Assembly (NCBI RefSeq): GCF_000309385.1
Contig: NZ_JH976537.1
Span: forward strand, 2,740,010 to 2,804,009
Length of the DNA stretch: 64,000 nt
DNA from: Nodosilinea nodulosa PCC 7104
Lineage (GTDB): Bacteria; Cyanobacteriota; Cyanobacteriia; Phormidesmidales; Phormidesmidaceae
Direction: 5' to 3'
Shown here: in pieces, positions 32,729 through 47,100 of the stretch
Numbering within the stretch: position 1 is the first letter of the stretch
Layout: the number at the start of each line of letters is the position of its first letter
Program-made: the position numbers and the translations under genes
Notes under the pieces: model-generated
The model's database searches: none
Seen by the model: the letters and a program-made list of their open reading frames with translations, nothing else
What the model was told of the DNA's origin: nothing

Positions 32729-34180
32729 ATGGTCGATCTGCTTCAGCTCAGCGGCAAACAGCGGCAGTTTGTGGAACTGCTGCAGCGGCGGCACACCGTG
32801 GATAGTCTGCGAGCGCTTTGCGCTGAGGCCGGGTTTGACTTCAACTTTATCAACGGTTTTTTGCGCAGTGGTGCCCTCGACGGCTACGTGCAGCATCAGG
32901 AGCACACCCAAAGAACCTGGGTGCTGACCCCCAAGGGCGATGAGCTAGGCGGAGTGCTGCCGGGGTTTTCTCTCGCCGATCGACTATTGCAGGGGGTGCG
33001 CGATCGCGCCACCCTCCAGGCCGAACTCGGCACCACCTTCAGCCTCAACTACGGGGCACTGCGGCGCGAGCAGGCTGTCGATCTGGTCGATGGCGATGGC
33101 GAAGGGATGGTTGCGGTGCTGAAGACGTCGGTACTGGGAGCCTACCAGCAGAGGCAGGCAGTATTTGGGGCGATCGCCGCCGACAAATCCCTGACGGAGG
33201 GGTCCGCTGCCTCCCTGGGCTGGCTGCAACAGCAGGGCTATATCACCAGTCGCAGCGAGACAGATTACAGCCTGACGGTGCTGCCCAATCTACAAACCCT
33301 CGATCTGGGCGACGTGGTGACGGCCCTCACCAGCGAGCGTATTCTCTCCGGTCAGTGGCGGCAGATTGACCTCAAGCCCTACGACATTCACGCTGAGGTG
33401 CCCGATGTAGCCTACGGTCGGCCTACCATTCTCAACCAGTGTATTCAGCGCATTCGCGATATTTTTCTCAACATGGGCTTCGACGAAATGTCGGGCTACA
33501 TAGTGGAGTCGGCGTTTTGGAACTTTGACGCTCTGTTTACCCCCCAAGATCACCCCGCCCGGGAGGTGCAGGACACTTTTTATCTGGCCACCCCCCAAAC
33601 GCTGCCGTTGCCTAGCGATCAATCCCTAGTCGATCGGGTAAAGCAGGTGCACGAGGCCAACTACGGCGGCCAGTGGACTGAAGCCGAAGCCAGCCGCGCC
33701 ATTCTGCGCGCCCACACCACTACCTCCACCGCCCGTCGCCTGCACCAGCTCCAGGGCAAAGATGGCAAGTATTTTTCGATCGATCGCGTGTTTCGCAACG
33801 AAACCGTCGATCGCACCCATCTGGCCGAATTTCACCAAATCGAAGGTGTGGTGGTGGGGGAACTGCTCAGCGTGCGCACCCTGATGGGCTACCTCACCTA
33901 CTTTTATGAGCGCCTGGGGTTCAAAGATTTAAAGTTCAAACCCACCTATAACCCCTACACCGAGCCATCGCTAGAGGTGTTTGCCTACCATCCACCGAGC
34001 GATCGCTACATCGAAGTGGGCAACTCGGGTCTGTTTCGCCAGGAAATGCTGGAGCCTCTGGGCTGCGGCAACAAGGCTACGGTGGCTTGGGGTCTGGGCC
34101 TGGAGCGCATTGCCATGCTGCTCTACGGCGTCGAAAAACTTGCCGACCTGATTGGGCCAGACATCCGGCTGGATGAGTAG
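32729..34180 (+). CDS. pheS: phenylalanyl-tRNA synthetase alpha subunit, archaeal/eukaryotic type
   Basis: The 483-residue protein has about 200 N-terminal residues of winged-helix-like domains followed by a class II synthetase core: GQWRQIDLKPYDIHAE, GFDEMSGYIVESAFWNFDAL, PQDHPAREVQDTFYL, ILRAHTTTSTARRL (motif 2 region), FSIDRVFRNETVDRTHLAEF, PTYNPYTEPSLEVFAYHP and motif 3 VAWGLGLERIAMLLYG. These features match the type 2 PheS of archaea, eukaryotes and spirochaetes rather than the shorter, about 330-residue bacterial PheS. No pheT is present here. ATG is at 32729, 7 bases after CAGGAG. Whether this is the only PheS or an extra copy cannot be seen. Confidence 0.85.
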   Translation: MVDLLQLSGKQRQFVELLQRRHTVDSLRALCAEAGFDFNFINGFLRSGALDGYVQHQEHTQRTWVLTPKGDELGGVLPGFSLADRLLQGVRDRATLQAELGTTFSLNYGALRREQAVDLVDGDGEGMVAVLKTSVLGAYQQRQAVFGAIAADKSLTEGSAASLGWLQQQGYITSRSETDYSLTVLPNLQTLDLGDVVTALTSERILSGQWRQIDLKPYDIHAEVPDVAYGRPTILNQCIQRIRDIFLNMGFDEMSGYIVESAFWNFDALFTPQDHPAREVQDTFYLATPQTLPLPSDQSLVDRVKQVHEANYGGQWTEAEASRAILRAHTTTSTARRLHQLQGKDGKYFSIDRVFRNETVDRTHLAEFHQIEGVVVGELLSVRTLMGYLTYFYERLGFKDLKFKPTYNPYTEPSLEVFAYHPPSDRYIEVGNSGLFRQEMLEPLGCGNKATVAWGLGLERIAMLLYGVEKLADLIGPDIRLDE

Positions 34181-35145
34181 CTCCAGCATTCGCGCTTTTT
34201 CCCAGCCCCCTGCCCCCCTGCTTTCAAACAATACCTAACCTCCCGCCCTAGAGCACCACTTATTCTAATTGCCAGCCAAACCGCATCGCTATTTTTACTG
34301 AGCCCTGATTCAGCTATTTGATGGCATCAGTAAATTTTCTGAATCCAAAAAACTTCTTTCATGCTTCTAAAATCCAAGCCATCAATTGCTATTAGAATGT
34401 GATATTGATACTAATGCCGCTCTACGCGGCCAATAAATCGAACCGCAAGATACCGAAATATGGCGCACTGGCATGTAGTCCTCAACCCAAAGGACTATGC
34501 AGGGTGTCCCAACCGATCTAGCAACAGCCAAATCGCGCAATTAAAAGACCCAAATCCATTTTCAGGCCTCCGTTTATCAATGCTTAAAAAACCTGGAAAA
34601 ATCTTTTATCTAACCTTATTCATCCAAAGCAATAAGGATTACTAAGTTTATTTCATTTACTTCAGAGGCCGTCATATCGCCACAAACCTTTACATAAAAG
34701 AGGTTTTCAAGGCCTGTAGCGATAGCACGCCAGGAAAGATTTTTGCCAATCTTCTGAACAGATGGTAGGTGGCGCAGCATATTGGGAATAATTAATTTTG
34801 AAAAAAATGACGTCAGGAAAGGTGTAAAAAGCTTGATTTAAAAGGCTTGAGGCTTATCTCTACCAGGCGGCAAAAAGCTCGATCTGATAGAGTTATCAGC
34901 TTTGCTGGTCAGTTGGCCGACAAAGCTATTTCAGGAAGCTTTAAACCGACTCATCCTAAATCGGCGTTACTCTCCAGCATTAGGAGCTATAAATCCATAC
35001 TTGAACTTTAGATCTTAATGCCAAGGCCATCTTTCTATTAGCGCTCTGTTGCTCTCCCACTTCGCGAGTGGTAGCTACATCAGGCCCAATGCGGTCAAGG
35101 AACCTGACGGAGCCTAGCTTTTCTGTGCCATGCCATTTACCAGCC
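34181..35145. other. 965-bp AT-rich non-coding gap before the DUF11 operon
   Basis: The longest gap in the window is noticeably AT-richer than its neighbours. A 61-codon frame at 34460 has no ribosome-binding site or family features. No tRNA, riboswitch or repeat was recognised. It probably holds the promoter and leader of the DUF11 operon, and perhaps remnants of lost genes. Confidence 0.5.
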
Positions 35146-37644
35146 ATGAAAAATACCCATACACCACCTCAATTTCGCTCGTTATCCAGTAGTTTTCGAC
35201 CGCTGGTCATTATGGCGATCGCCGCCGCTGGCGTTTTCCGTTTTCTGGTCCCTGTTCTAGCCGAAGGCACCGCCGCTGGCACCGACATTATTAACCGGGC
35301 TACCGCAACCTACAGCGATGGCACAACCAACTTTGACGCCATTTCCAATACCGTCACCATCAAAGTAGAAGAGGTACGCGGCCTCACCGTCACCGATGCG
35401 GGCTTTACTGATGCCAATGGCAGCAGCATTGCTACCGGCGACAACCTCTACTTTGACTTTTTAGTCACCAACACCGGCAACGCCAACGCCTTTGTCTATG
35501 TTCCAGGGGCGACGGCCCTCGGCCCGCTGGCCACAGGGGGCAACATCACCGCTGTCGAAATCATTGAGGTCAACGGCACGGCGCTGGGTGCTGCGATCGC
35601 GGTTCCGGCAGGAGGTGATAGCACTAACAACCTGGCAGCGTTCCCCAATACAGGCATTGTCGGAGCCGACCAAAACTTTAAGGTGCGGGTGACCATGGCC
35701 GTCACCGCCATCAACGGGGGCGACCCGGTGAAGGTGCAGTTTGGTAATACGGCTGACAATCCCCCCAACACCCAAAACCAGCAAAATATCCGCGATGACT
35801 CAGACGGGGCATCCAATGCCAACGATGTCCGCACCTTAGACGCCGACGGCACCCTTACTCCAGCCAACGGCGAACGGGAAGCCGCTGCCTCTCACCAGGA
35901 AGTAGTCGGTACCCAGCCCAAGCCCCTAGCCCAGACCACCCTGTTGCTGACGTCAACAACCGCACCGGGAGCCAACGCCAACAGTGCCGTAGACGATACC
36001 ATCACCTACGATCTCGACTTCCGGGTAGCCAATAATCCTCAGCCAGGATTCCCGGTCGGCAGCCTAGAAGGCACCACAATAAATCTCAATGGCACTCCCA
36101 CCGAGCGCATTTTAGTCTCCACTACCGTGCCCCCCAACACCGTGTGGGATGGCAACGCGCCTATCGTGCCCAACGGCAACTGGATTCCAGTCTATTCCAC
36201 CGATGACGCCTATACGGGTGTCGAGAACCCGATCAACGGCGTCACCTGGACCACCACCCCGCCTGCACCCGGCACCGTCAAGCGGATTGGTTTCGTCTAC
36301 GACTCAGGCGCCAATGGAGCCCTGCCGCCCGGTACCGCTGTCAACGATTTTAGATTCACCGTGGTGACCAGCGGCTTACCCACCACCGGGGGTAGCGTCG
36401 CCAACATTGGCCAGATCTTTGGCGAAACCCTCAACGATCCAGCCAACAATCTGGTCTACGACGAGTCTGGCGACCAGGATGCCAACAACTACGATGATGG
36501 CGTCTTCCCGCCCAACCCCGACATCAGCGACTTTATTGCCAATCCCCAAACCGGTGCCGCCAACCCCAACGACCCAGATACCAACAGCAACAACACCGGC
36601 ACTGGCCCCAATGGAGAAGCAAACGTCATCGGCATTTTGCCCCTGGCAGCTGCCAACAGCGCCCTGCTCAATGGCCCCAACAACGTGCCCAACGCCATTG
36701 GCCCCACCAATGCCCAGGACGACTTTACCAACGCGGCCACCACTGTACCCACCCCTGGAGTGCAGGGTAGTGCTAGCGATCCGGCAGCGGTGACGATCAC
36801 TAACACTGTCCAGAACACCATTGCCACCAATCTGGATAACGTCAAGCTCTTGCCCTTTGCCCCCGATGCGACCAATGCTCTAACCGGTGGGGTCCACGGC
36901 ACCAACGCCAGTATCCCTGACGGCACCACGGTGACGATTAAATTCGGGGCTCAAACTGCGGCCTATACCTACACTGCGGCCGGGGGCTTTGCTCCGGTAG
37001 CCGCTAACCCACCTGTAGTAATTGGCACCCTGACCGCCAATCAACGACAGTCCTATACGGTGACGGTGGACTTGCCAGCGGGCACATCCCAAATTCAGGG
37101 CTATACCATTCCCGTCGTGGCCTTTGTGGATAACGACAGCAGCAACAGCTTTGTTGCCACAACAGACACGATCTATAACTTCACCAACGATCGCATCTAT
37201 CCCGGCTTTATCAATCTGGTGAAGGCGGCTCGCATTCTGGATACCAACGGCACCACCCAAATCGATCCGGCTGGCCCCGGCCCCAGCTACACGGCGACCC
37301 CAACCGGGCGGCCAGCGCCAGGGCAGTTTGTGGAATACCAGATTACCTACCAAAACATCTCTGAGATTCAACCTGCCACTGGCGGCGGCAACGTGCTGCT
37401 CACCGGCAGCGGGCTCGTGATTACCGAGGACGGAGCGGCGGCACCGAACACCTGGGCGGGGATTACCAGCCACCGACAAAATACGGCTGCTACCCTCGGC
37501 ACCCTGCAGTTCTACAACGGCGCAGTTTTGCTCGGCAGCACCGACCCGGCCTCAGGAGCGGCGGTAACCCGATACGTCAACACGATTCCTTCCCTGGCAC
37601 CGCAGGTGAGCGGCTCGCTGACCTTCCGCCGGATTGTCAACTAG
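35146..37644 (+). CDS. secreted DUF11-repeat surface protein
   Basis: The 832-residue protein has a signal-type N-terminus (basic start, hydrophobic PLVIMAIAAAGVFRFLVPVLA) and opens its mature part with IINRATATYSDGTTNF, a typical DUF11 lead. It is rich in Asn, Thr, Gly and Ala with several beta-sandwich repeats (YFDFLVTNTGNANAFVYVPG; VEYQITYQNISEIQPATGGG). It ends SGSLTFRRIVN. An Asp/Asn-rich DPDTNSNNTGTGPNGEANV patch may bind calcium. DUF11 domains occur in bacterial cell-surface proteins. ATG 35146 is preferred over 35068 because it begins the signal sequence. First gene of a five-gene operon. Confidence 0.8.
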   Translation: MKNTHTPPQFRSLSSSFRPLVIMAIAAAGVFRFLVPVLAEGTAAGTDIINRATATYSDGTTNFDAISNTVTIKVEEVRGLTVTDAGFTDANGSSIATGDNLYFDFLVTNTGNANAFVYVPGATALGPLATGGNITAVEIIEVNGTALGAAIAVPAGGDSTNNLAAFPNTGIVGADQNFKVRVTMAVTAINGGDPVKVQFGNTADNPPNTQNQQNIRDDSDGASNANDVRTLDADGTLTPANGEREAAASHQEVVGTQPKPLAQTTLLLTSTTAPGANANSAVDDTITYDLDFRVANNPQPGFPVGSLEGTTINLNGTPTERILVSTTVPPNTVWDGNAPIVPNGNWIPVYSTDDAYTGVENPINGVTWTTTPPAPGTVKRIGFVYDSGANGALPPGTAVNDFRFTVVTSGLPTTGGSVANIGQIFGETLNDPANNLVYDESGDQDANNYDDGVFPPNPDISDFIANPQTGAANPNDPDTNSNNTGTGPNGEANVIGILPLAAANSALLNGPNNVPNAIGPTNAQDDFTNAATTVPTPGVQGSASDPAAVTITNTVQNTIATNLDNVKLLPFAPDATNALTGGVHGTNASIPDGTTVTIKFGAQTAAYTYTAAGGFAPVAANPPVVIGTLTANQRQSYTVTVDLPAGTSQIQGYTIPVVAFVDNDSSNSFVATTDTIYNFTNDRIYPGFINLVKAARILDTNGTTQIDPAGPGPSYTATPTGRPAPGQFVEYQITYQNISEIQPATGGGNVLLTGSGLVITEDGAAAPNTWAGITSHRQNTAATLGTLQFYNGAVLLGSTDPASGAAVTRYVNTIPSLAPQVSGSLTFRRIVN

Positions 37645-37751
37645 CCAGGTCCATCGGGGAATGAGGCGTGACGTTCTGCAACGTTTTTCGTCCCCTGGGA
37701 TGACCGCCATCCACTGATATTTGCACAACATTCTGGACGAGATTAATCACT

Positions 37752-38315
37752 ATGAAACGCTCACTTAGTTTAGGTTTAGCGGCCCTGGCGACCCTCGTGG
37801 TTATTCCCCTGGCCAAGGGCAGCCCCGGGCTGGCTCAGCTGCAAAATAGGGGGACCGAGATTGTTCAGCAGGTGCTGCGCCCAGAGATCAAGCTGGTGCT
37901 GCAGGCCGAAAAACAGGTGCAAACGCTAGATGAGCAGGGTAAGCCTCTGATCGCCTGGCAGCAGCTAGAAGGTGAGGCCACGGTGCAGCCCCAGGATGTG
38001 CTGCGCTACACCATTAGCTCAGAAAACGCCGGGGAAATGGCCGCTAAGAACCTAGTGATTACTCAATCTATTCCATCGCAGATGACCTACGTGCTGGCGA
38101 CGGCAGTGGGCAATGACGGGGCCAAAATTACCTACAGCATTGATGGCGGCAAGTCTTTTGTGGCCGAGCCTTTAGTAGAGGTGGTGCAGGAGGATGGCAC
38201 GGTAGCGATGGAACCGGCCCCGGCGGAAGCCTACACCGACATTCGCTGGGATTTTGCGCAGTCTTTAGAGCCTGAGGTGGTGGTGCAGGTGGCCTACAAC
38301 GTCACTGTGAAATAG
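37752..38315 (+). CDS. single-DUF11-domain exported protein
   Basis: The 187-residue protein has a signal peptide (MKRSLSLGLAALATLVVIPL, cleavage near SPGLAQ) and one DUF11-like domain (VQPQDVLRYTISSENAGEMA; NLVITQSIPSQMTYVLATAV; DIRWDFAQSLEPEVVVQVAY). It has the size of a minimal subunit and might be an adaptor or pilin-like building block between the larger proteins. It starts 107 bp after the preceding gene in the same direction. Confidence 0.8.
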   Translation: MKRSLSLGLAALATLVVIPLAKGSPGLAQLQNRGTEIVQQVLRPEIKLVLQAEKQVQTLDEQGKPLIAWQQLEGEATVQPQDVLRYTISSENAGEMAAKNLVITQSIPSQMTYVLATAVGNDGAKITYSIDGGKSFVAEPLVEVVQEDGTVAMEPAPAEAYTDIRWDFAQSLEPEVVVQVAYNVTVK

Positions 38316-38481
38316 CCCCAGGGGCGAGCCCACCCTGGCCGCGATCGCCCTCTATCACCACCCTCACCCTATCCACTTGCTGAAGGTCAGGCCCAGCAGG
38401 ACAGGATTTTTTCGCCTGTTGGTCACGGCCTACCGTTCGCGCCGTTCCGCTGGATCTCCCCGTTATTTTCGAGCCGCTCCG

Positions 38482-40059
38482 ATGGTTACGCTCCTACTCA
38501 AATTGTCACTGCAATGGGGACTGGCACTGCTCAGCCTGGCTGCACCGAGGGGCCTAGGTTCTCAGCGCCGCCGCCGGCTCAGCCATCTGCTGCTGTTGCC
38601 CCTGGAATTTGGCCTCGCAGTGGGATTGACCCTTGGGCTGGCTGCTCCGCTGAAGGCCCAGCCAGCCCCCGACGCCAGCCTGAATAATCAGGCCACCTAC
38701 AGCTACAGCGTTGACAACAGCGGTCGCACCTGGACGGGCTATGGTGCCGTATCGCTAGGGCGATCGCTGATCGACCCCTTTGGCACTCTGCTGGGGTGCG
38801 GCGGCGCGCCCCTGCCCAACTACCAGGGGTTTACCCTGGCGCTCTACAACCCGCTGCCCGGAGATGCCACCCAGTCGGAGCTGGGTTCGCTGGTGTCGTT
38901 GACCCCGACCGAACTGCCCGACATTCCCGGCAATGGGGTGCCGAGCGGCCTGGCCCCCAACACCACCAATGCCAATCTCTACAGCCTGTCATCCCAGGGC
39001 ACCTATAACTTTTTGCTGGATGCGGCCCAGGGGCAAGTCGATGTGGGGCGCACCTATCTACTGGTGGTGAATCCGCCCGTCGGCACTCCCTACGTCCAGC
39101 GGCGGGTCAAGCTCCAGATTCTCAGCAACGGCGGCGGGGTGATTACCTATCGGGCAACGTCTCTGGACGGCCAGCCGATTACCGCTACCGGAGCTACCCA
39201 AATCGACCAGCAGACCGTCCAGGTCAACAATGCGGCCCAGGCGGGGCTTCAGCTCTCGGCCCTCAACCTGGTCACAACGCTGTGTAATGCCCGCCAGCTA
39301 CAGCTGACGAAGTCGGGCGATCGCGCCGTAGCCCAGCCGGGCGACACCGTGATCTATCGGGTTTTGGTGCGCAACCAGACCGATATTTCGCTTCAGAATT
39401 TTACCTTTACAGACACCCTGCCCCTGGGCTTTCGCCTGGTGGCGGGGTCTGCCCGAGCAGCGTTGGCGGATCAGACCTATCCGGTTCAGGTCAACCAGTC
39501 TGGTTCCACGGTGGAATTTCAGGTAGATGCCGCCGCCGTTCTGCCGGTGGGTGAGGCGCTGAGCGTAGTCTACGCGGCCCAGCTGACTCCCGATGCCATC
39601 CGTGGGACAGGACGTAATTCGGCGCTGGTCACAGCCCGCCGCAGCGATACCGGAGGGCTGTTGCGGGATGGTCCTGCGACCCACCGACTGCGGATTGATC
39701 CAGGCCTACTGTCAGACTGCGGCACCCTGATTGGCCGCGTCTTTGAAGACCTGAACTTCGACGGCGAACAGCAGAATGGGGAACCGGGGATTCCCTACGC
39801 GGTGATTTTTCTCGACGACGGCAATCGCATTACCACCGACGAGCGGGGCATTTTTTCCCTGGCCAATGTGCTGCCGGGCTATCGCTCGGGCACCCTCGAC
39901 CCGCTGAGCATTCCCGGCTATGAGCTGGCCCCCAACCAGGTCTTTATCGAGCGCAATAGCACCTCTCGGCTGGTGCATTTGGCCCCCGGCGGCATGGTGC
40001 GGATGAACTTCGGGGTCATGGCTCAAAGCCAGGCGGAGGGTAGCGAGAATGAGCTGTAA
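38482..40059 (+). CDS. exported DUF11 and SdrD_B-like domain protein
   Basis: The 525-residue protein starts with an extended hydrophobic, basic lead and a second hydrophobic segment ending in LGLAAPLKAQ, the probable cleavage site. Residues about 65-280 form an N-terminal beta region, then a DUF11 domain (VAQPGDTVIYRVLVRNQTDI; NFTFTDTLPLGFRLVAGSAR). The C-terminal SdrD_B/Cna-B-like domain has GRVFEDLNFDGEQQNGEPGI, a likely calcium-binding loop, and TTDERGIFSLANVLPGYRSG. ATG 38482 is chosen; the frame opens at a TTG at 38377. Its end overlaps the barrel gene by 11 bp, indicating coupled translation. Confidence 0.8.
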   Translation: MVTLLLKLSLQWGLALLSLAAPRGLGSQRRRRLSHLLLLPLEFGLAVGLTLGLAAPLKAQPAPDASLNNQATYSYSVDNSGRTWTGYGAVSLGRSLIDPFGTLLGCGGAPLPNYQGFTLALYNPLPGDATQSELGSLVSLTPTELPDIPGNGVPSGLAPNTTNANLYSLSSQGTYNFLLDAAQGQVDVGRTYLLVVNPPVGTPYVQRRVKLQILSNGGGVITYRATSLDGQPITATGATQIDQQTVQVNNAAQAGLQLSALNLVTTLCNARQLQLTKSGDRAVAQPGDTVIYRVLVRNQTDISLQNFTFTDTLPLGFRLVAGSARAALADQTYPVQVNQSGSTVEFQVDAAAVLPVGEALSVVYAAQLTPDAIRGTGRNSALVTARRSDTGGLLRDGPATHRLRIDPGLLSDCGTLIGRVFEDLNFDGEQQNGEPGIPYAVIFLDDGNRITTDERGIFSLANVLPGYRSGTLDPLSIPGYELAPNQVFIERNSTSRLVHLAPGGMVRMNFGVMAQSQAEGSENEL

Positions 40060-43000
40060 GCGAGTCTATAGGGCAATGGTTGCCGTCGGTAGTCTTGGCC
40101 TGGTTATGGGTACTGGCATGCCGCTGGCGAAGGCCGAAGCTTCCGTCGATCGCCCGACAATCTCAGCAAGTAGCACCCCTGCAAAGGCCAAACCTGCCGA
40201 CGCGATCGCGCTAGCCCACCCTGCGGATCCAACCTCTGACCTAGGTGAGCCGTTACCTCTCCTGATCGCGGATGAGACTCCAACCGCAGAGGGTGCCAGC
40301 GAGCTGCTCACATCCCCAGACTCAGCAGCACCCAAACCGGGCATCTCTGACGCGATCGCCGATGGGGCCCCAGCCACAGGTGGGGCCAGCGAACCATTCC
40401 CTCCCCCCGATGCGGCAGAGCCAGGGCAGGAGAGCCCTGACGAATCCGTGGTCCAGGGGTCAATTCGCGTTCTGACCCCCAGCCCGGACGCCGTCCTCGA
40501 TATTCCCTCCACTACGGTGACGCTGCAGTTTCCCGTGGGCAGCGAGATTACCCTGATGGTCAACGGCAGCCCGGTGCCCGCCGACCTGATTGGCCGCACT
40601 GAAACCAACCTGGAAACCGGCCTGATTACCCAGACCTGGTACGGGGTCGGGCTGCACGCAGGCGAAAATCAGCTGTCTGCCCAGGGCCAGCTGGCCGGAA
40701 CCACGCTGGCCGGGGCCGAACAGCTGGTGAGGGTGCGCGGCGCGATCGCCAGCCTCAGCATTACCACCCTGGAGAGTCGGGTCACCGCCGACGGCCGATC
40801 GACGGTCACCGTGCAGGGCCAGCTTTTAGATGCCCAGGGCAATGTCGCCAGCCAGGACACGGTGATCACCCTGGAAGCCAGCCAGGGACAGTTCACCGAT
40901 GAGGATCAAAACCCGGACCAGCCAGGGTTTCAGGTGCAGACCCAGGGAGGCAGCTTCCGCACGACGTTGCAAACGGGGCTAACCCCAGGTCAGGCGACGA
41001 TTCGGGCCAGTCGGGGCGAGCTGGAAGCCTACACCCAGGTGGAGTTCATTACCGAGCTGCGGCCCACGCTGCTGACCGGGGTGGTGGATGTGCGGCTAGG
41101 GGGCGGCGGCACCGATTTTTATAGCCGCTACCGCGATTTTTTGCCCCCCGACGGTGGGGCTGGCACCCAGCTAGCGGTGCGGGGCGGGGCCTTTGCCATC
41201 ACCTCCTTTGGCGACTGGCGCTTTACCGGGGCCTACCGCAGCGATCGCGCCCTCAACGAAGGCTGCGACGGCACCGTGCCGCTGTTTCGCACCTACCAAG
41301 ACTGCGATCGCGCCTACCCGGTCTACGGCGATGATTCCACTTCAGAAGTGCTTGCTCCTTCCACCGACAGCCTCTACCTACGGCTCGAGCGCACCTCTCC
41401 CGAACTCAACGCCGGGTCGGATTACGTCATGTGGGGCGACTACCGCACTGACGAGTTTGCCACCTCGTCTCAGCTCTACAGCAGCATTAGCCGATCGCTC
41501 CATGGCTTTAGCGGCAACTATAACCTGGGCAATCTGCAGCTCTCCGCCATCTACGGCAACAACATTCAGGGATTTCAGCGCGATACCATTGCCCCAGACG
41601 GCACCAGCGGCTTTTACTTCCTCTCGCGCCGCCTGCTGGTGCCGGGTAGCGAGGCGGTTTACTTTGAGCTAGAGGAACTCAACCGCCCGGGGCAGGTGCT
41701 CGATCGCCAGCAGCTCAGCCGCGGCCCCGACTACGAAATCGACTACGATCGCGGCACTCTCCTATTTCGTCAGCCGGTGTTGCGCACCGTGGTCGATAGC
41801 CAGGGCCGTAACCTGGTGCGGCGGATTGTGGCCACCTACCAGTACGAGGGAGGGGGCAGCACCAGCCTCTACGGCGGTCGCCTGCGCTATCACCTCAACC
41901 GCGACTCAGACCAGGCCAGCTGGCTGGGGGCCACCTACCTGCAAGAGAATCAAACGGCCCAGCAGTTTCAGCTCTACGGGGCCGATGCCCAGGTGAGCTT
42001 TGGCACGGGCGGGCTGCTGCTGGCCGAATACGCCCACTCGACCAATAGCCTGGTCAGCACCGCCCCGGTATCCGGCGATGCCTATCGGCTGGAGGTGAGC
42101 AATGCCTTTAGCGACCAGCTCTCCGGGCGGGCCTACTGGCAGGAGGTTTCCCCCGGCTTTGCCAACAATGCCACCACCAGCTTTGTGCCGGGCCAGCGCC
42201 GCTACGGGGCAGAACTCCAGGCCGATCTGTCAGAAACTACCACCCTGCGCTTTGGCTACGACCACGAAGACAACTATGGCATCGCCCCCGCCACCCTGAC
42301 GGCGCTGGAGCCGCTTCTATTTCCTGGCGTTACTGCCGCGCCGGGGCAGCCCCTCGATAACTCGCTGACCACGATCAGCGCAGGTATTCAGCAGCAGATT
42401 GGCAGCGCCACTACCTCGATCGACTGGATTCACCGCGATCGCCGCGATCGCCTCGCCCCCGAATTTAGCTCCGTCACCGACCAAATTCGCTCGATGGCAA
42501 CGCTGCCCATCGCTGATAACGTCACCTTCACCGCCCTGAATGAGTTCACCCTGGCCGGGCGCACTGATGCTGTCTATCCCAATCGCAGCCTGCTGGGCCT
42601 CAACTGGCAAATTTATCCCGGCATTAGCCTTGGGGTCACCCATCAAATTCTCAACGGAGGTCAGTATGACAACGACAGCCTCACCTCCCTCTATCTATCC
42701 GGCGACTACGAGCTGGGATCAGACACTCGGTTCACGGGCAACTTCTCGATGTTTGATCGGGGTCAGATGTCTGGCTCCATCGGTGTTGAGCAGGGCGTTA
42801 CCCTGGCCCCGGGCCTGCAGCTGGATCTGGCCTACGAGCATGTGTTTCAGAGCAATAATCTTGTCACCGGGGCCGGCACCCAGTTTGCTCAGCCCTATGC
42901 CGTAGGCCAGGCGGCAGCCGCTCTGGCACCCACGGGCGGCGACAGCTATAGCGTCGGACTGTCCTACACGGGCAGTCCCGACTTTCAGGCCAATGCCCGC

Positions 43001-43795
43001 TTTGAGCATCGCACCTCTAGCGCCGGGTCGAACACCGTCATATCCGCCGATGCTCGGGGTCGCCTGACGCGATCGCTCACGGTCTTAGGCCGCTTTCAGC
43101 AGGCCAGTGCCGCCAACCAGCTGCTCTCAGGGCTGGGCGATACCACCAATCTGCGCCTCGGCCTGGCCTACCGAGACCCCGAGAACGACAAATTAAATGC
43201 CCTGCTGCGCTATGAGTACCGCCGTAACCCGGGCCTGCTGCCCGAAAGTCTGCTAGCGGGCAGCGGCAGCGGCTCAGCGGATCATGTCTTTTCCGCCGAG
43301 GCGATCTATGCTCCGAACTGGCAGTGGGAATTCTACGGTAAGTTCGCCTTTCGGAGCAGCACCTCGTACCTGGCCTCAGACTTAGTCGGCAGCAGCACGG
43401 TCACCCTGGCTCAGCTGCGGGCGACCTACCGCCTCAATTACCAGTGGGATATTGTCGGCGAGGCCCGATTTATCAACCAGCCCAGCGCTGGCTACGGCGA
43501 AACCGGGTTCTCTCTGGAGACGGGCTATTATCTAAATCCAAATCTGCGGCTGTCGGCGGGCTACAGCTTTGGCGGCGTCTCCGATCGCGACTTCAGCGGC
43601 TCCCGCTCGGCGGGTGGCCCCTACTTCGGCCTCACCCTCAAGCTCGACAACTCGCTGCTAGAGGGCTTCAGCATCGACGACCCATCGATTGGTGTTGATG
43701 CCCCAGCCACTGAAGCGATGCCCCTAGATATACAGTCAGGCGATGGCGCGATCTCGCCCAACAGTCAGCCGCGTCCCCCGGAGGAAGAACTATGA
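40049..43795 (+). CDS. large outer-membrane beta-barrel protein with Ig-like N-terminal domains
   Basis: The 1248-residue protein has a signal peptide (VAVGSLGLVMGTGMPLAKAE), a Pro/Glu-rich linker to about 145, a PEGA/Ig-like domain (about 145-230) and a second Ig/Big-like domain (about 230-335; ADGRSTVTVQGQLLDAQGN). From about 345 to 1210 there are many alternating amphipathic strands (WRFTGAYRSDRAL; SDYVMWGDYRTDEF; LRYHLNRDSDQASWLGATYL; ARFEHRTSSAGSNTVISADA) with a YPVYGDDS motif, as in barrel proteins of DUF11 clusters. A tail of about 40 polar residues follows. It overlaps both flanking genes (11 and 4 bp). It could be a surface-assembly platform or transporter; this is inference. Confidence 0.75.
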   Translation: MSCKRVYRAMVAVGSLGLVMGTGMPLAKAEASVDRPTISASSTPAKAKPADAIALAHPADPTSDLGEPLPLLIADETPTAEGASELLTSPDSAAPKPGISDAIADGAPATGGASEPFPPPDAAEPGQESPDESVVQGSIRVLTPSPDAVLDIPSTTVTLQFPVGSEITLMVNGSPVPADLIGRTETNLETGLITQTWYGVGLHAGENQLSAQGQLAGTTLAGAEQLVRVRGAIASLSITTLESRVTADGRSTVTVQGQLLDAQGNVASQDTVITLEASQGQFTDEDQNPDQPGFQVQTQGGSFRTTLQTGLTPGQATIRASRGELEAYTQVEFITELRPTLLTGVVDVRLGGGGTDFYSRYRDFLPPDGGAGTQLAVRGGAFAITSFGDWRFTGAYRSDRALNEGCDGTVPLFRTYQDCDRAYPVYGDDSTSEVLAPSTDSLYLRLERTSPELNAGSDYVMWGDYRTDEFATSSQLYSSISRSLHGFSGNYNLGNLQLSAIYGNNIQGFQRDTIAPDGTSGFYFLSRRLLVPGSEAVYFELEELNRPGQVLDRQQLSRGPDYEIDYDRGTLLFRQPVLRTVVDSQGRNLVRRIVATYQYEGGGSTSLYGGRLRYHLNRDSDQASWLGATYLQENQTAQQFQLYGADAQVSFGTGGLLLAEYAHSTNSLVSTAPVSGDAYRLEVSNAFSDQLSGRAYWQEVSPGFANNATTSFVPGQRRYGAELQADLSETTTLRFGYDHEDNYGIAPATLTALEPLLFPGVTAAPGQPLDNSLTTISAGIQQQIGSATTSIDWIHRDRRDRLAPEFSSVTDQIRSMATLPIADNVTFTALNEFTLAGRTDAVYPNRSLLGLNWQIYPGISLGVTHQILNGGQYDNDSLTSLYLSGDYELGSDTRFTGNFSMFDRGQMSGSIGVEQGVTLAPGLQLDLAYEHVFQSNNLVTGAGTQFAQPYAVGQAAAALAPTGGDSYSVGLSYTGSPDFQANARFEHRTSSAGSNTVISADARGRLTRSLTVLGRFQQASAANQLLSGLGDTTNLRLGLAYRDPENDKLNALLRYEYRRNPGLLPESLLAGSGSGSADHVFSAEAIYAPNWQWEFYGKFAFRSSTSYLASDLVGSSTVTLAQLRATYRLNYQWDIVGEARFINQPSAGYGETGFSLETGYYLNPNLRLSAGYSFGGVSDRDFSGSRSAGGPYFGLTLKLDNSLLEGFSIDDPSIGVDAPATEAMPLDIQSGDGAISPNSQPRPPEEEL

Positions 43796-46029
43796 CGTTA
43801 AGGTCTTCTGTGCATCACGGCGCAGCCGCCAAATTACTTCGGCTCCTGCTGGGGATACTCTCGCCAACGGTTTTACTCGCAGCTGCGCTGGCTGGGGTCT
43901 CTCCACCCGCGAGGGCCGAGGGCAGTCGAGATATGGTGACTGACGGCGGCGATCGCCCCTTTACTGAATGGGCTAGCAGCACAACAGCGGGCATTCCCCG
44001 TCAAACACTGCTGAAGGTCTATGTGCAGGCCGGAGAAACCCTCAATTTAGGATCGAGCGTCTATGCCAGCGCTACCGACCCAGCCGATATCGTCTACCGA
44101 AACCCTTCGGGGCAGCAGGGCTCCTGCAACGTGCTAAACACAGGCTTTGGCTGGATTGACACGCTCGCCAAAGAAACGGCAGGTCCTTTACCCAACGTCA
44201 ACGGCTACACCCCCTGCATCGTCACCGCCACCCAAACAGGGATTTATGAGGTTGAGTTTCACGCCCCGGCTACTAGCGGGAACCCCACCCCTGTCAGTGC
44301 TACAGCCGCCTTCCAGACCGATGCCACTCAGCGCTCTGGCGTTGCCGCCTGGGACATTACCGTTAGAAATAGTGGGGGCACGGCCCAACTCGGGCGTGTG
44401 TTTACCAGCTATGTCGCCATGAATATGGGCGCAAATAACCGTTTTCTGGCTAGCGATTTCTATATCCAAACCTGGGACGGTTACCTCTACAGAACCGACA
44501 TGAACAATGTCGACCCCTTTGGATTTGTTTTTTTTGGTAACTCTAGGGGGTTTCTCGACGCAACTAACGGCAGCACGCTATATCACTCTGCCCAGGCAGT
44601 TGACAACAACCTCAATCCGTTCTTTGGCAACGTCGTTGTTCAAAGTCCCTTGGCAGCTAACAATTCTTCAACCAACAGCTACACCCATCTGGTGTTTTTT
44701 AATCCTCCCGATGGCAAGACTCTCGACCAATTGGGTATACCAAGAAGTCCATCGGTACCGCAGCCTCCTAGTGATTTCCGGTTTGTGGGCGCTAATAATA
44801 GCGACAACCGCACCCTGGTTGGCGTTGGGGGAAATTTTTATTTCACCGTCGCGGGTGGCAGTAGCTACCGCATTATCTTAGATACCAATACCGACGGCGT
44901 ATTTAACGCCGCGACGGATCGCGTGTTAGAAAATATCTTGGTTCCTGGGGCGAACCAAGTGTTTTGGGATGGCAAAGACGCCGCTGGCAACAACCTGCCG
45001 CCCCGCCCAGGCAACGCCCCCTACAGCGCCAGAATTGTCATTCGCAATGGCGAGTATCACTTCCCCATGCTGGATGCTGAGTCTAATGCCAGTGGATTCA
45101 TCATCGAAATGACCAATCCACCCCAGAGTTTCCCCAATTTTTTAGATTTAAATGGTGTGCCCATCGATCGCTATACCGTTTATTACAACGACAGCAACTA
45201 CACCACGGCCAACGGCACAACCGTCAGCCTAGACGGCGGCGGCGCAACCTTTCCTCGCAATGCTATAGAAGGGATTAGAAGCAATGGCGGAGAGCACGAG
45301 TTTAGCAGTAACTACGGCGACTTCAAGGGAATTGATACCTGGGCATTTTTTCCCAGTGAAGCCGTTTTTTCAAATGTCATCATCACCACTGCAATTACCG
45401 ATCCGGCCATACTGCTGGTGAAGCGGATTACGGCGATTAACAGCACTAATTTCACGGGTGTCGTGGACGGCGTTAACATCTCTGGAGATCCCAACTATGT
45501 GCCGTCCCCCCGCGATCAGGACGATAATCATCCCCGCTGGCCCAGTGGCTTTCTCAAGGGGCAGATTACGGGGGCTATTCAGCCGGGTGACACGGTGGAG
45601 TTTACGATTTACTTCCTCTCCAGCGGCACCGCCCCAGCCCAGAATGTGTTGTTCTGTGATCTGGTGCCATCCAACGTGACCTTTTTACCCGCCGCCTATA
45701 ATGCCACCGCTGCGGCCAGCGGCCCCAATCCGGTGCCGGGCGTCACAACAGATGGCGGCGATCGCGGCATCGTGCTGGGCCTGGGCACGCAGTCTGCCAC
45801 CAGTCCGTACCCCATTCAGGTGTCTCTGTCCAACAGCAGCGATGGCGATGTGGGACAGTACGTTGCCCCCGGCATCGACCTAACCACAATCGACAGTCGT
45901 TTGGCCGGCTGCGGCAGCAACACCAACGGGGCGATCGTGGCCAACCTGGGCAATTTGCCCCAGGCTACCAGCGCTGGAGATCCGGCGGGCTCCTACGGCT
46001 TTGTTCGCTTTCGAGGGCGGGTCAACTAG
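43792..46029 (+). CDS. secreted protein with FlgD-like and DUF11 domains
   Basis: The 745-residue protein has a signal peptide (LLLGILSPTVLLAAALAG, cleavage after ARA). An N-terminal beta domain contains two cysteines (QGSCNVL; TPCIVTA). A FlgD-like Ig unit follows (YRIILDTNTDGVFNAATDRV; VFWDGKDAAGNNLPP). A C-terminal DUF11 domain (about 560-740; QPGDTVEFTIYFLSSGTAPA; VLFCDLVPSNVTFLPAAY) ends YGFVRFRGRVN, like the end of the first operon protein. The start overlaps the barrel stop as ATGA. Last gene of the operon. Confidence 0.8.
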   Translation: MTLRSSVHHGAAAKLLRLLLGILSPTVLLAAALAGVSPPARAEGSRDMVTDGGDRPFTEWASSTTAGIPRQTLLKVYVQAGETLNLGSSVYASATDPADIVYRNPSGQQGSCNVLNTGFGWIDTLAKETAGPLPNVNGYTPCIVTATQTGIYEVEFHAPATSGNPTPVSATAAFQTDATQRSGVAAWDITVRNSGGTAQLGRVFTSYVAMNMGANNRFLASDFYIQTWDGYLYRTDMNNVDPFGFVFFGNSRGFLDATNGSTLYHSAQAVDNNLNPFFGNVVVQSPLAANNSSTNSYTHLVFFNPPDGKTLDQLGIPRSPSVPQPPSDFRFVGANNSDNRTLVGVGGNFYFTVAGGSSYRIILDTNTDGVFNAATDRVLENILVPGANQVFWDGKDAAGNNLPPRPGNAPYSARIVIRNGEYHFPMLDAESNASGFIIEMTNPPQSFPNFLDLNGVPIDRYTVYYNDSNYTTANGTTVSLDGGGATFPRNAIEGIRSNGGEHEFSSNYGDFKGIDTWAFFPSEAVFSNVIITTAITDPAILLVKRITAINSTNFTGVVDGVNISGDPNYVPSPRDQDDNHPRWPSGFLKGQITGAIQPGDTVEFTIYFLSSGTAPAQNVLFCDLVPSNVTFLPAAYNATAAASGPNPVPGVTTDGGDRGIVLGLGTQSATSPYPIQVSLSNSSDGDVGQYVAPGIDLTTIDSRLAGCGSNTNGAIVANLGNLPQATSAGDPAGSYGFVRFRGRVN

Positions 46030-46098
46030 CCCAGCCCCGGCAGGCACAAATCCCTGGCCAGCGCGGCAGCCAGGTAGAGTTCCGTGAGTCATCGGGTC

Positions 46099-46428
46099 TC
46101 AGGCGGCTGATTCTTCCGGAATTTGATCGGCGGGTGAACTACGGTCCAGGGAACCTGGGGGCGCTGCCTCGACCTCCCCTACCAAAACCTCTAGCTCCAG
46201 GGTGAGTTGCTCACCGGGTTCTGGCTCGGCACCGTCCTCGGGGGGGGCCTCAGGCTCTCCTTCAGCGGCCTCAGCGCTGTCGCGGGCTAGCCAGGGAGAA
46301 TCGAAGTGGTGCCATGGCAGCACAGGCTCGTTGGGCAGGCTTTCGGTGAGCACGGTGATGTTACTGACATCTGGCTCGGGCAGGGCCACCCGCCGCTCTA
46401 GAGCTGTTTCTTGCTGTCCATCACTCAT
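46099..46428 (-). CDS. acidic hypothetical protein
   Basis: The 109-residue protein is strongly acidic and Pro-rich (EAAEGEPEAPPEDGAEPEPG) with one conserved-looking segment (NEPVLPWHHFDSPWLARDS). There are no membrane or signal segments; it is likely disordered. It follows the 46483-47100 gene by 54 bp on the same strand and may be co-transcribed. The call rests on a complete frame and coherent composition only. Confidence 0.45.
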   Translation of the reverse strand: MSDGQQETALERRVALPEPDVSNITVLTESLPNEPVLPWHHFDSPWLARDSAEAAEGEPEAPPEDGAEPEPGEQLTLELEVLVGEVEAAPPGSLDRSSPADQIPEESAA

Positions 46429-46482
46429 TACTGGTTCCCGCTGAATGCGTTAAAAACCCTGGGTTAGAGCTTTTGAAGGCTG

Positions 46483-47100
46483 CTAGAACGTCCCAAACGT
46501 TGCCCCAGCAGCCACGTAAATTACCAGAATATGTACCAGCATGATAGCAGTTGTGCCCCAGATGGTGTAAGCCGCATATTTAAGGCTTTGCGATGTATCT
46601 TCGAGGCGCTGCTTATTGGCGTTGTAGGTTTCAGAGAGGTTTACCAGCATTTGCAGCTGGTAGTCTTGCTCGGGCAGGGCCAGGTAGGTTTCTAAAAATT
46701 TACGGTCTTCCAGGTTGGGGGTGACGGCCACCTGGCGGGGCAGAAAAGCCCCCATCAGCAGCGAAAAGCTGACCAGAAAGCCCACCACTTCGGCCAGGCT
46801 GAACAGGCTGCCGCTCACCAGCAGCCGCGAAATGCTGAGGCTGGTGAGCAGCGCCCCATTGGCGACAAACAGGATGTTGAGCTTGGTGGTCAACAGCTGG
46901 CTTTGCTCGCTCTGCTCGCGCAGCACCATGCGCACATCCTGGGCCGCCAGGGCCAGGGTAGCCGGGGCGATGGTCGGTGGGGTGGGGGGTGGCTCCTCCA
47001 CGGGCAGGCTCAGCTGTACCTCGTCGGCGGGGGCGGGGGGCAAGACGTCCACCGGAGGCAGGGTATCGACGGGGGCCGGGGTAGAGACAGCATTGACCAT
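46483..47100 (-). CDS. unknown membrane protein with three helices
   Basis: The 205-residue protein has a Pro-rich N-terminus (about 1-40), an amphipathic segment, two consecutive membrane helices (LNILFVANGALLTSLSISRL; VVGFLVSFSLLMGAFLP), a soluble helical stretch (YQLQMLVNLSETYNANKQRL) and a C-terminal helix (AAYTIWGTTAIMLVHILVIY). The two-helix plus cytosolic helix plus one-helix layout recalls small membrane effectors of nucleotide-signalling systems, but no such motif can be demonstrated. Function unknown. Confidence 0.65.
   Translation of the reverse strand: MVNAVSTPAPVDTLPPVDVLPPAPADEVQLSLPVEEPPPTPPTIAPATLALAAQDVRMVLREQSEQSQLLTTKLNILFVANGALLTSLSISRLLVSGSLFSLAEVVGFLVSFSLLMGAFLPRQVAVTPNLEDRKFLETYLALPEQDYQLQMLVNLSETYNANKQRLEDTSQSLKYAAYTIWGTTAIMLVHILVIYVAAGATFGTF

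Follow-up and report, generated by a model that had tools for sequence, protein, structure and literature searches.

The question raised by this locus is whether five adjacent genes (p1 to p5), which encode a very large predicted outer-membrane β-barrel and four exported proteins with Ig-like domains, form a system that exports or anchors proteins at the cell surface, and which of the five would then be machinery and which cargo. The window analysed is a stretch of 64,000 nucleotides from Nodosilinea nodulosa PCC 7104, whose genome comprises 6.9 Mb in 2 contigs. Five open reading frames, all on the plus strand, occupy positions 35146 to 46029 and either overlap or are separated by short gaps (Table 1), and the called coordinates agree with the five-gene operon proposed in the initial annotation, including overlaps of 11 bp between p3 and p4 and 4 bp between p4 and p5. 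For p1 an alternative GTG start at 35068 is possible, and the signal-peptide-like N-terminal segments are discernible by eye only. A promoter and terminator scan of 34100–46600 was uninformative, with 2 promoter-like sites (shuffle mean 4.8) and 12 terminator-like sites (shuffle mean 11.0). None of the five proteins had any match in PHROGs, and domain-family searches of the five recognised neither a chaperone nor an energy source in the operon.

Table 1 Coordinates of the genes and gene segments of the five-gene cluster, in window positions.
Feature	Position	Strand	Description
p1	35146..37644	+	Exported 832-aa protein with Ig-like domains; DUF7925 at 35938-36492; ends TFRRIVN
p2	37752..38315	+	Exported 187-aa single DUF11-domain protein; ends YNVTVK; present in 76/80 loci
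p3	38377..40059	+	Exported; DUF11 at 39298-39636 and weak SdrD_B at 39736-39879 near the C-terminus; start (TTG) uncertain
p4	40049..43795	+	1248-aa predicted outer-membrane giant β-barrel; two N-terminal Ig-like domains
p4 N-terminal Ig-like pair	40469..41050	+	Second domain Big_1/Invasin_D3-like
p4 barrel region	41069..43645	+	About 40 predicted strands (DSSP list of the model: 8 before and 32 after the insert)
p4 plug-like insert	41573..41794	+	Conserved IAPDGTSG...GSE...DYEIDYDRGTLLF segment; runs of invariant columns; short strands, model residues 390-450
p5	43792..46029	+	Exported 745-aa variable partner (proposed cargo)
p5 conserved C-terminal DUF11-type domain	45415..46026	+	Ends GFVRFRGRVN

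Pfam searches assigned p1 to DUF7925 (E 2.1e-52, 178.1 bits against a cut-off of 26.5) and found no DUF11 match in it. DUF11 passed its cut-off in p2 (25.6 bits against 24.6) and in p3 (30.4 bits), where SdrD_B was matched only sub-threshold (E 3.3e-4). In p5 a DUF11-type repeat near the C-terminus was recognised by TIGR01451 (29.8 bits, cut-off 24), the Pfam DUF11 match being sub-threshold (16.5 against 24.6). The earlier description of the secreted proteins as DUF11, SdrD_B-like and FlgD-like units is therefore borne out for DUF11 in p2, p3 and p5, reaches SdrD_B only through the sub-threshold match in p3, and does not hold for p1 or for FlgD-like units, which are below threshold in all window proteins; FlgD_ig in another p5 (L041) had an E-value of 0.006, under that family's cut-off. 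The AlphaFold model of p1 (mean pLDDT 79) retrieved mostly general Ig-chain proteins with Foldseek (PrgB, integrins and others), which informs on fold class only. DUF7925 is listed among predicted isopeptide families, with Q8YS00 as example protein, in the available part of one study (PMC12617251). The triad columns read Lys-Asp-Asn in 67 of 77 aligned p1 sequences (4 rows are gapped). The p1 of the window retains the Asn (N420) and lacks the Lys and Asp (L268, T326), and its relatives L024 to L027 have M-T-N or M-S-N at these columns, so that the isopeptide cross-link is probably absent in this lineage.

Sub-threshold Pfam matches to Invasin_D3/Big_1 at residues 236–334 of p4 are followed by a long β-rich region. 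An AlphaFold model of residues 133–1214, built from an alignment of 42 close sequences, places two Ig-like domains first, followed by 8 strands, then a plug-like section made up of short strands with highly conserved sequence, and finally a further 32 strands. Model quality is moderate (mean pLDDT 71.8, pTM 0.54), several of the first 8 barrel strands lie in or adjoin low-confidence stretches, and because of these values and the shallow alignment both the strand count and the plug are uncertain. The initial annotation had predicted a barrel with periplasmic Ig-like domains and had named structure prediction as a means of refuting it; the model shows two Ig-like domains and supports the barrel at moderate confidence.

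Structural comparison with VIA-align gave the FimD usher as top row (Z 16.1, 339 of 1082 residues, rmsd 7.6), together with SprA (Z 14.7, 664 residues, rmsd 11.4), which aligned along the entire barrel, and with a siderophore receptor, PiuA (Z 15.1), and a porin, Omp32 (Z 14.7). As PiuA and Omp32 score as high as SprA, this ranking does not single out secretion barrels. Foldseek returned β-galactosidases, SlpA/SDBC, SprA, FimD and receptors with TM-scores ≤0.2 over the barrel; a β-galactosidase came first because of a match to the Ig-like pair, and Deinococcus SlpA/SDBC chains ranked 2, 4 and 5. A search of PDB sequences with p4 alone gave no match, and the barrel profile at E ≤5 retrieved only a β-galactosidase (0.0074) and a designed barrel (0.49), with no match to SprA. 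Pfam assigned the Usher family neither to p4 (E 0.1) nor to the 14 members of a barrel alignment (E 0.01), the inverse-autotransporter barrel family likewise to none of these proteins, no TonB receptor or plug family to p4, and no type V family (POTRA/ShlB or autotransporter barrel) to p4 (E 0.1); SLH had no match in p1–p5 (E 0.1). The model thus supports a very large predicted barrel with a plug-like insert and supports membership of no family. An OmpA domain was found in 2 of the 14 aligned barrels (Pfam, E 0.01), over the cut-off in L014 and sub-threshold in L020. These two p4 relatives (L014 1303-5721, L020 109-5094) are 1470–1660 aa long and carry the OmpA match in a C-terminal extension, which suggests that such extensions may anchor the barrel directly to peptidoglycan.

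The cluster recurs widely in cyanobacteria. A scan of the genome collection yielded 454 relatives. The best 80 were kept, all of them cyanobacteria by title; the closest over p4 among these are from two Nodosilinea, one Phormidium and one filamentous strain (80–86% identity). In 72 of these best 80 loci p4 is immediately preceded by p1-p2-p3, and among the 74 with p3 immediately before p4 the overlap of these two genes is exactly 4 bp in 59. Four of the other eight loci have no upstream gene before p4 near a contig end (L038, L039, L089, L103), two have p1 and p2 in the locus with only p3 passing the 600-base spacing rule (L028, L087), and the remaining two have a barrel split into two frames (L077) or an extra small frame (L086); the barrel is also split in L100, which was nevertheless counted within the 72. 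Of 292 genomes sampled from the phylum, 27 have DUF7925 and 36 match the barrel profile, 32 of them with a near-complete barrel; the four partial or remnant matches (G329, G085, G087, G098) were left out of the barrel-genome count. All 27 DUF7925 genomes fall within the 32 with a near-complete barrel, and DUF7925 was found in none of 14 control genomes. The co-occurrence and order of p1–p4 is far beyond chance, and the recurrence of the families elsewhere, on which the initial annotation had staked its proposal, is therefore borne out by the upstream order in 72 of 80 loci and by the barrel in 27 of 27 DUF7925 genomes. The five-gene set is located on a plasmid in Synechococcus NIES-970.

Proteins were labelled p5 by means of an iterated profile. 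ORFs in 65 loci matched it, and in 63 loci p5 remained the best label of an ORF, one ORF per locus being used. Median pairwise identity (divided by aligned columns) was 0.66 for p4, 0.64 for p3, 0.54 for p2, 0.52 for p1 and 0.30 for p5, whose length ranges from 416 to 2203 aa. The divergence is unevenly distributed along p5: in the 62 proteins of at least 600 aa, median identity (divided by the shorter sequence) was 0.45 over the last 175 residues, 0.12 over the first 250 and 0.15 in the middle. The front part of the profile is still matched by 33 of 63 p5 proteins, and the front is therefore not always unrelated. In seven examples examined for domains, the front consists of DUF11 arrays, SdrD_B, SpaA, lamin-tail or GEVED, with one lacking any family. 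Proteins of the p5 type with more than 2000 aa occur at L026 (13849-19965) and L079 (13836-20444); a domain scan of the former showed ten stretches of DUF11. Pairwise distances over 56 loci correlate with those of p4 at 0.82 for p1, 0.87 for p2, 0.92 for p3, 0.66 for the p5 tail and 0.25 for the p5 front; these correlations are supportive, though confounded by shared ancestry and saturation. We therefore propose, from this pattern of conservation, that p5 behaves like a cargo, with a conserved tail and an otherwise divergent chain.

The distribution of the p5 tail closely follows that of the barrel. Strong tail matches (best E ≤8.9e-22) occur in 31 of the 32 near-complete-barrel genomes and in 0 of the 260 others (Fisher 5e-41, a value that ignores shared ancestry). 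Weak matches (E ≥1.9e-7) occur in ten remaining genomes, namely G026, which has a near-complete barrel and only a weak tail match (2e-6), G085 and G098, which have partial barrels, and seven genomes without a barrel, in which the matches to the tail profile are partial (1.5e-5 to 2.8e-4). Several tailed proteins can lie beside one barrel (G221, G215, G112, L035, L038, L081). In G323, contig C3 carries p1–p4 and the sole strong match to the tail is a full-length p5 on C168, and the partner can therefore be unlinked. With p5 variable and sometimes multiple or unlinked, the fixed proportion of products earlier deduced from the gene overlaps does not hold in general.

The similar C-terminal strand noted in two of the secreted proteins (FRRIVN in p1, FRGRVN in p5) is real, the sequences being as quoted. 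With loose patterns in the relatives, the strand motif forms the exact C-terminus of 66 of 76 p1, 74 of 76 p2 and 61 of 63 p5 proteins, and at other places in these loci the p1-type pattern turns up only seldom (8 matches are internal and 1 is close to an unrelated end). Nine p1 proteins have residues beyond the motif (5 by pattern and 4 by eye, the latter L037, L047, L056 and L060), and a free end is therefore not always required. In the AlphaFold model of p1, the terminal domain has nine or ten strands (block pLDDT 80–96), and residues 822–831 form the last strand of this complete Ig-like domain (pLDDT 95 and 90 for the blocks concerned). The most economical explanation is that p1, p2 and p5 terminate precisely with the final strand of a DUF11-like domain. 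A donor-strand exchange involving this strand was also considered and is unsupported by the model, which covers p1 only and in which residues 822–831 complete the domain they belong to.

Relatives of the p3-p4 pair extend to Deinococcota and Pseudomonadota. A tblastn search of plasmids gave 33 records, 31 of them non-cyanobacterial (Deinococcus, Thermus, Acinetobacter, Roseobacter-group, rhizobial genera and others), and 12 of the 31 were examined (H3, H4, H5, H8, H9, H11, H15, H16, H21, H24, H27, H28). The p3 profile recognised a p3-type module next to the barrel, or fused with it, in 9 of the 12 (L104, L106, L108, L110, L118, L119, L120, L122, L123). In L105 and L109 the neighbour is annotated as DUF11 or SdrD_B and is not matched by the p3 profile; the upstream gene of L109 is incomplete in the stretch examined, and for the barrel gene of this locus tblastn is the sole support. 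The alphaproteobacterial L121 has no p3-type neighbour and has IS elements upstream. In L105, L108 and L122 the match to the p4 profile lies mainly in the Ig-like pair, and support for the remainder comes from profile comparison only. The cyanobacterial barrel profile aligned with that of six outside loci over 952 columns (E 2e-63) and with that of three Deinococcota loci alone over 828 columns (E 1.5e-21), the plug segment included. Fusions of p3-type and p4-type sequences are found in Acinetobacter haemolyticus, Pacificitalea and a Deinococcus gobiensis open frame, and genes resembling p2 and p1 are present as well in Deinococcus ficus. In Acinetobacter an OmpA-domain gene neighbours the barrel, and OmpA appears in the name under which the Eleftheria barrel gene is annotated. 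Judged by these comparisons, the most widely spread core is the p3-p4 pair rather than all five genes.

A second barrel, 48% identical, is encoded elsewhere in the same genome (L004 4279-12589, corresponding to G000:C1 6034278-6042588). Its operon is of a second type, with a p3-like gene, the barrel, a β-helix protein with an OmpA domain and a DUF11 protein ending FRVTVN; the last three occur in the same order at the G140 and G221 loci, and gene order is similar at L112 and L113.

No description of the operon or the barrel was recognised in full-text searches of open-licence papers. Several known systems share part of the architecture. The chaperone-usher pathway (FimD), the top structural row for p4, resembles the system as predicted here in its large barrel, plug-like insert, N-terminal domains and Ig-like subunits, but no Usher family match and no PapD-type chaperone was recognised among the five proteins. 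The FimD usher barrel has 24 strands, whereas some 40 are predicted here, and the terminal Ig-like domain of p1 is predicted to be complete. The type IX secretion system offers a giant single-chain barrel (SprA), an alignment over the whole barrel and partners with a conserved C-terminal domain; type IX cargo carry conserved C-terminal tails, but p4 has no sequence match to SprA and the tail here is of DUF11 type. In intimin and invasin, Ig-like (Big_1/Invasin D3) domains and a barrel are likewise combined in one protein, but the intimin barrel precedes the Ig-like domains whereas in p4 they precede the barrel, which is also far larger. For Deinococcus SlpA/SDBC, the fold similarity to p4 is weak and p1–p5 lack its SLH match. 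Domain content is held in common with fibrillar adhesins that carry DUF11 (CLIPPER) and DUF7925, as far as the available text describes them (PMC12617251); the differences are the giant barrel in the operon and the loss of the isopeptide Lys and Asp from the DUF7925 of the window. GhlA of Litorilinea (Chloroflexota), a chain of DUF11 domains, forms a grappling-hook-like extracellular filament according to the accessible part of its description (PMC13319060). It differs in being a single 6,596-aa protein from a phylum said to lack canonical BAM, with no barrel partner described in that same part (PMC13319060). The sixth ORF of the Acinetobacter fil operon encodes FilF, a 641-aa putative pilus assembly protein in the accessible part of the report (PMC4751259); on this description Fil fimbriae were considered as a candidate for the same system, and the link was not adopted.

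The reading that we prefer, with a likelihood that we place at an even balance, is that p3 and p4 form an outer-membrane platform for the export or anchoring of Ig-repeat surface proteins with a dedicated C-terminal domain. In this scheme p4 would supply the giant β-barrel with its periplasmic Ig-like domains and internal plug, and p3 would be its DUF11-SdrD_B partner, which in some other bacteria is fused to the barrel. The platform would export chains of Ig-like (DUF11/CLIPPER) domains, anchor them onto the cell surface, or both, with p1 and p2 as constant structural or assembly subunits. The variable surface protein would be p5, its conserved tail recognised by, or docking on, the p1–p4 machinery, and p5-type partners might also be encoded elsewhere in the genome. 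The reading draws on a conserved operon, a constant module with a variable partner, near-absolute co-occurrence of tail and barrel, and the predicted folds. These comparisons show a functional unit and a dedicated association of tail and barrel. The earlier suggestion that the barrel anchors or exports repeat proteins fits the conserved tail on an otherwise divergent p5; we infer, at the strength of that fit, that the barrel is the export route and the tail a signal or anchor, although the tail could instead be a polymerisation or structural domain. The product would be a fibre or an adhesive surface structure, the evidence not separating a layer, fibres and adhesins. More tentatively, and somewhat short of even likelihood, the cluster may represent an undescribed outer-membrane secretion or assembly pathway, with the giant plugged barrel and its DUF11-SdrD_B partner as core, in Cyanobacteriota, Deinococcota and Pseudomonadota.

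The same genes might instead encode a barrel-anchored adhesin complex with no export role, in which p3-p4 are the anchor on which the p5 tail docks and the DUF11 proteins are exported by other means. The p3-type/p4-type fusions of the three outside genera would suit an anchor, as would the recurrence of OmpA (in 2 of 14 barrels, in the Acinetobacter neighbour, in the Eleftheria name and in the β-helix protein by the second barrel) and the role of DUF11 and related domains as stalk domains of fibrillar adhesins, reported in the available portion of that survey (PMC12617251). A barrel of about 40 strands is, however, far larger than an anchor needs, and the domain searches of the five proteins revealed no other exporter of the outer membrane; we regard this alternative as rather unlikely. 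That the barrel is a structural porin like SlpA/SDBC, scaffolding an S-layer-like coat of p1, p2 and p5, appears improbable: the Deinococcus chains rank high in Foldseek and the system has relatives in Deinococcota, but TM-scores do not exceed 0.2, no SLH domain is present in the five proteins and p5 is too divergent for a lattice subunit. Least probable of all, and by our estimate very unlikely, is a porin for uptake or polysaccharide export that its neighbours serve only loosely. Several alphaproteobacterial relatives are annotated as TonB-dependent receptors, and PiuA and Omp32 align with p4 at the scores given above; against this stand the absence of a TonB receptor or plug family from p4 in Pfam, the linkage to DUF11 proteins in three phyla and the co-occurrence of tail and barrel.

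In cyanobacterial two-step secretion, the step that crosses the outer membrane is described as still to be identified in the accessible part of a recent account (PMC13297417). A conserved operon with a giant barrel and co-occurring tailed partners makes this question of export directly testable in transformable strains. Barrel relatives in other phyla are labelled 'hypothetical protein', 'TonB-dependent receptor', 'OmpA family protein' or 'DUF11 domain-containing protein', and a demonstrated function would therefore rename many genes.

Just upstream of the operon, at 32729-34180 (+), lies a gene for an archaeal-type phenylalanine–tRNA ligase alpha subunit (PRK04172, 409 bits against 350). A second PheS is encoded at G000:C1:2234025 (361-aa frame) and an archaeal-type PheT match is found on contig 2 (331 bits, cut-off 283), and the organism seems, from these matches, to carry two PheRS systems. 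Strong matches to the window PheS (E ≤1e-78) occur in 29 of the 57 genomes searched, its own included.
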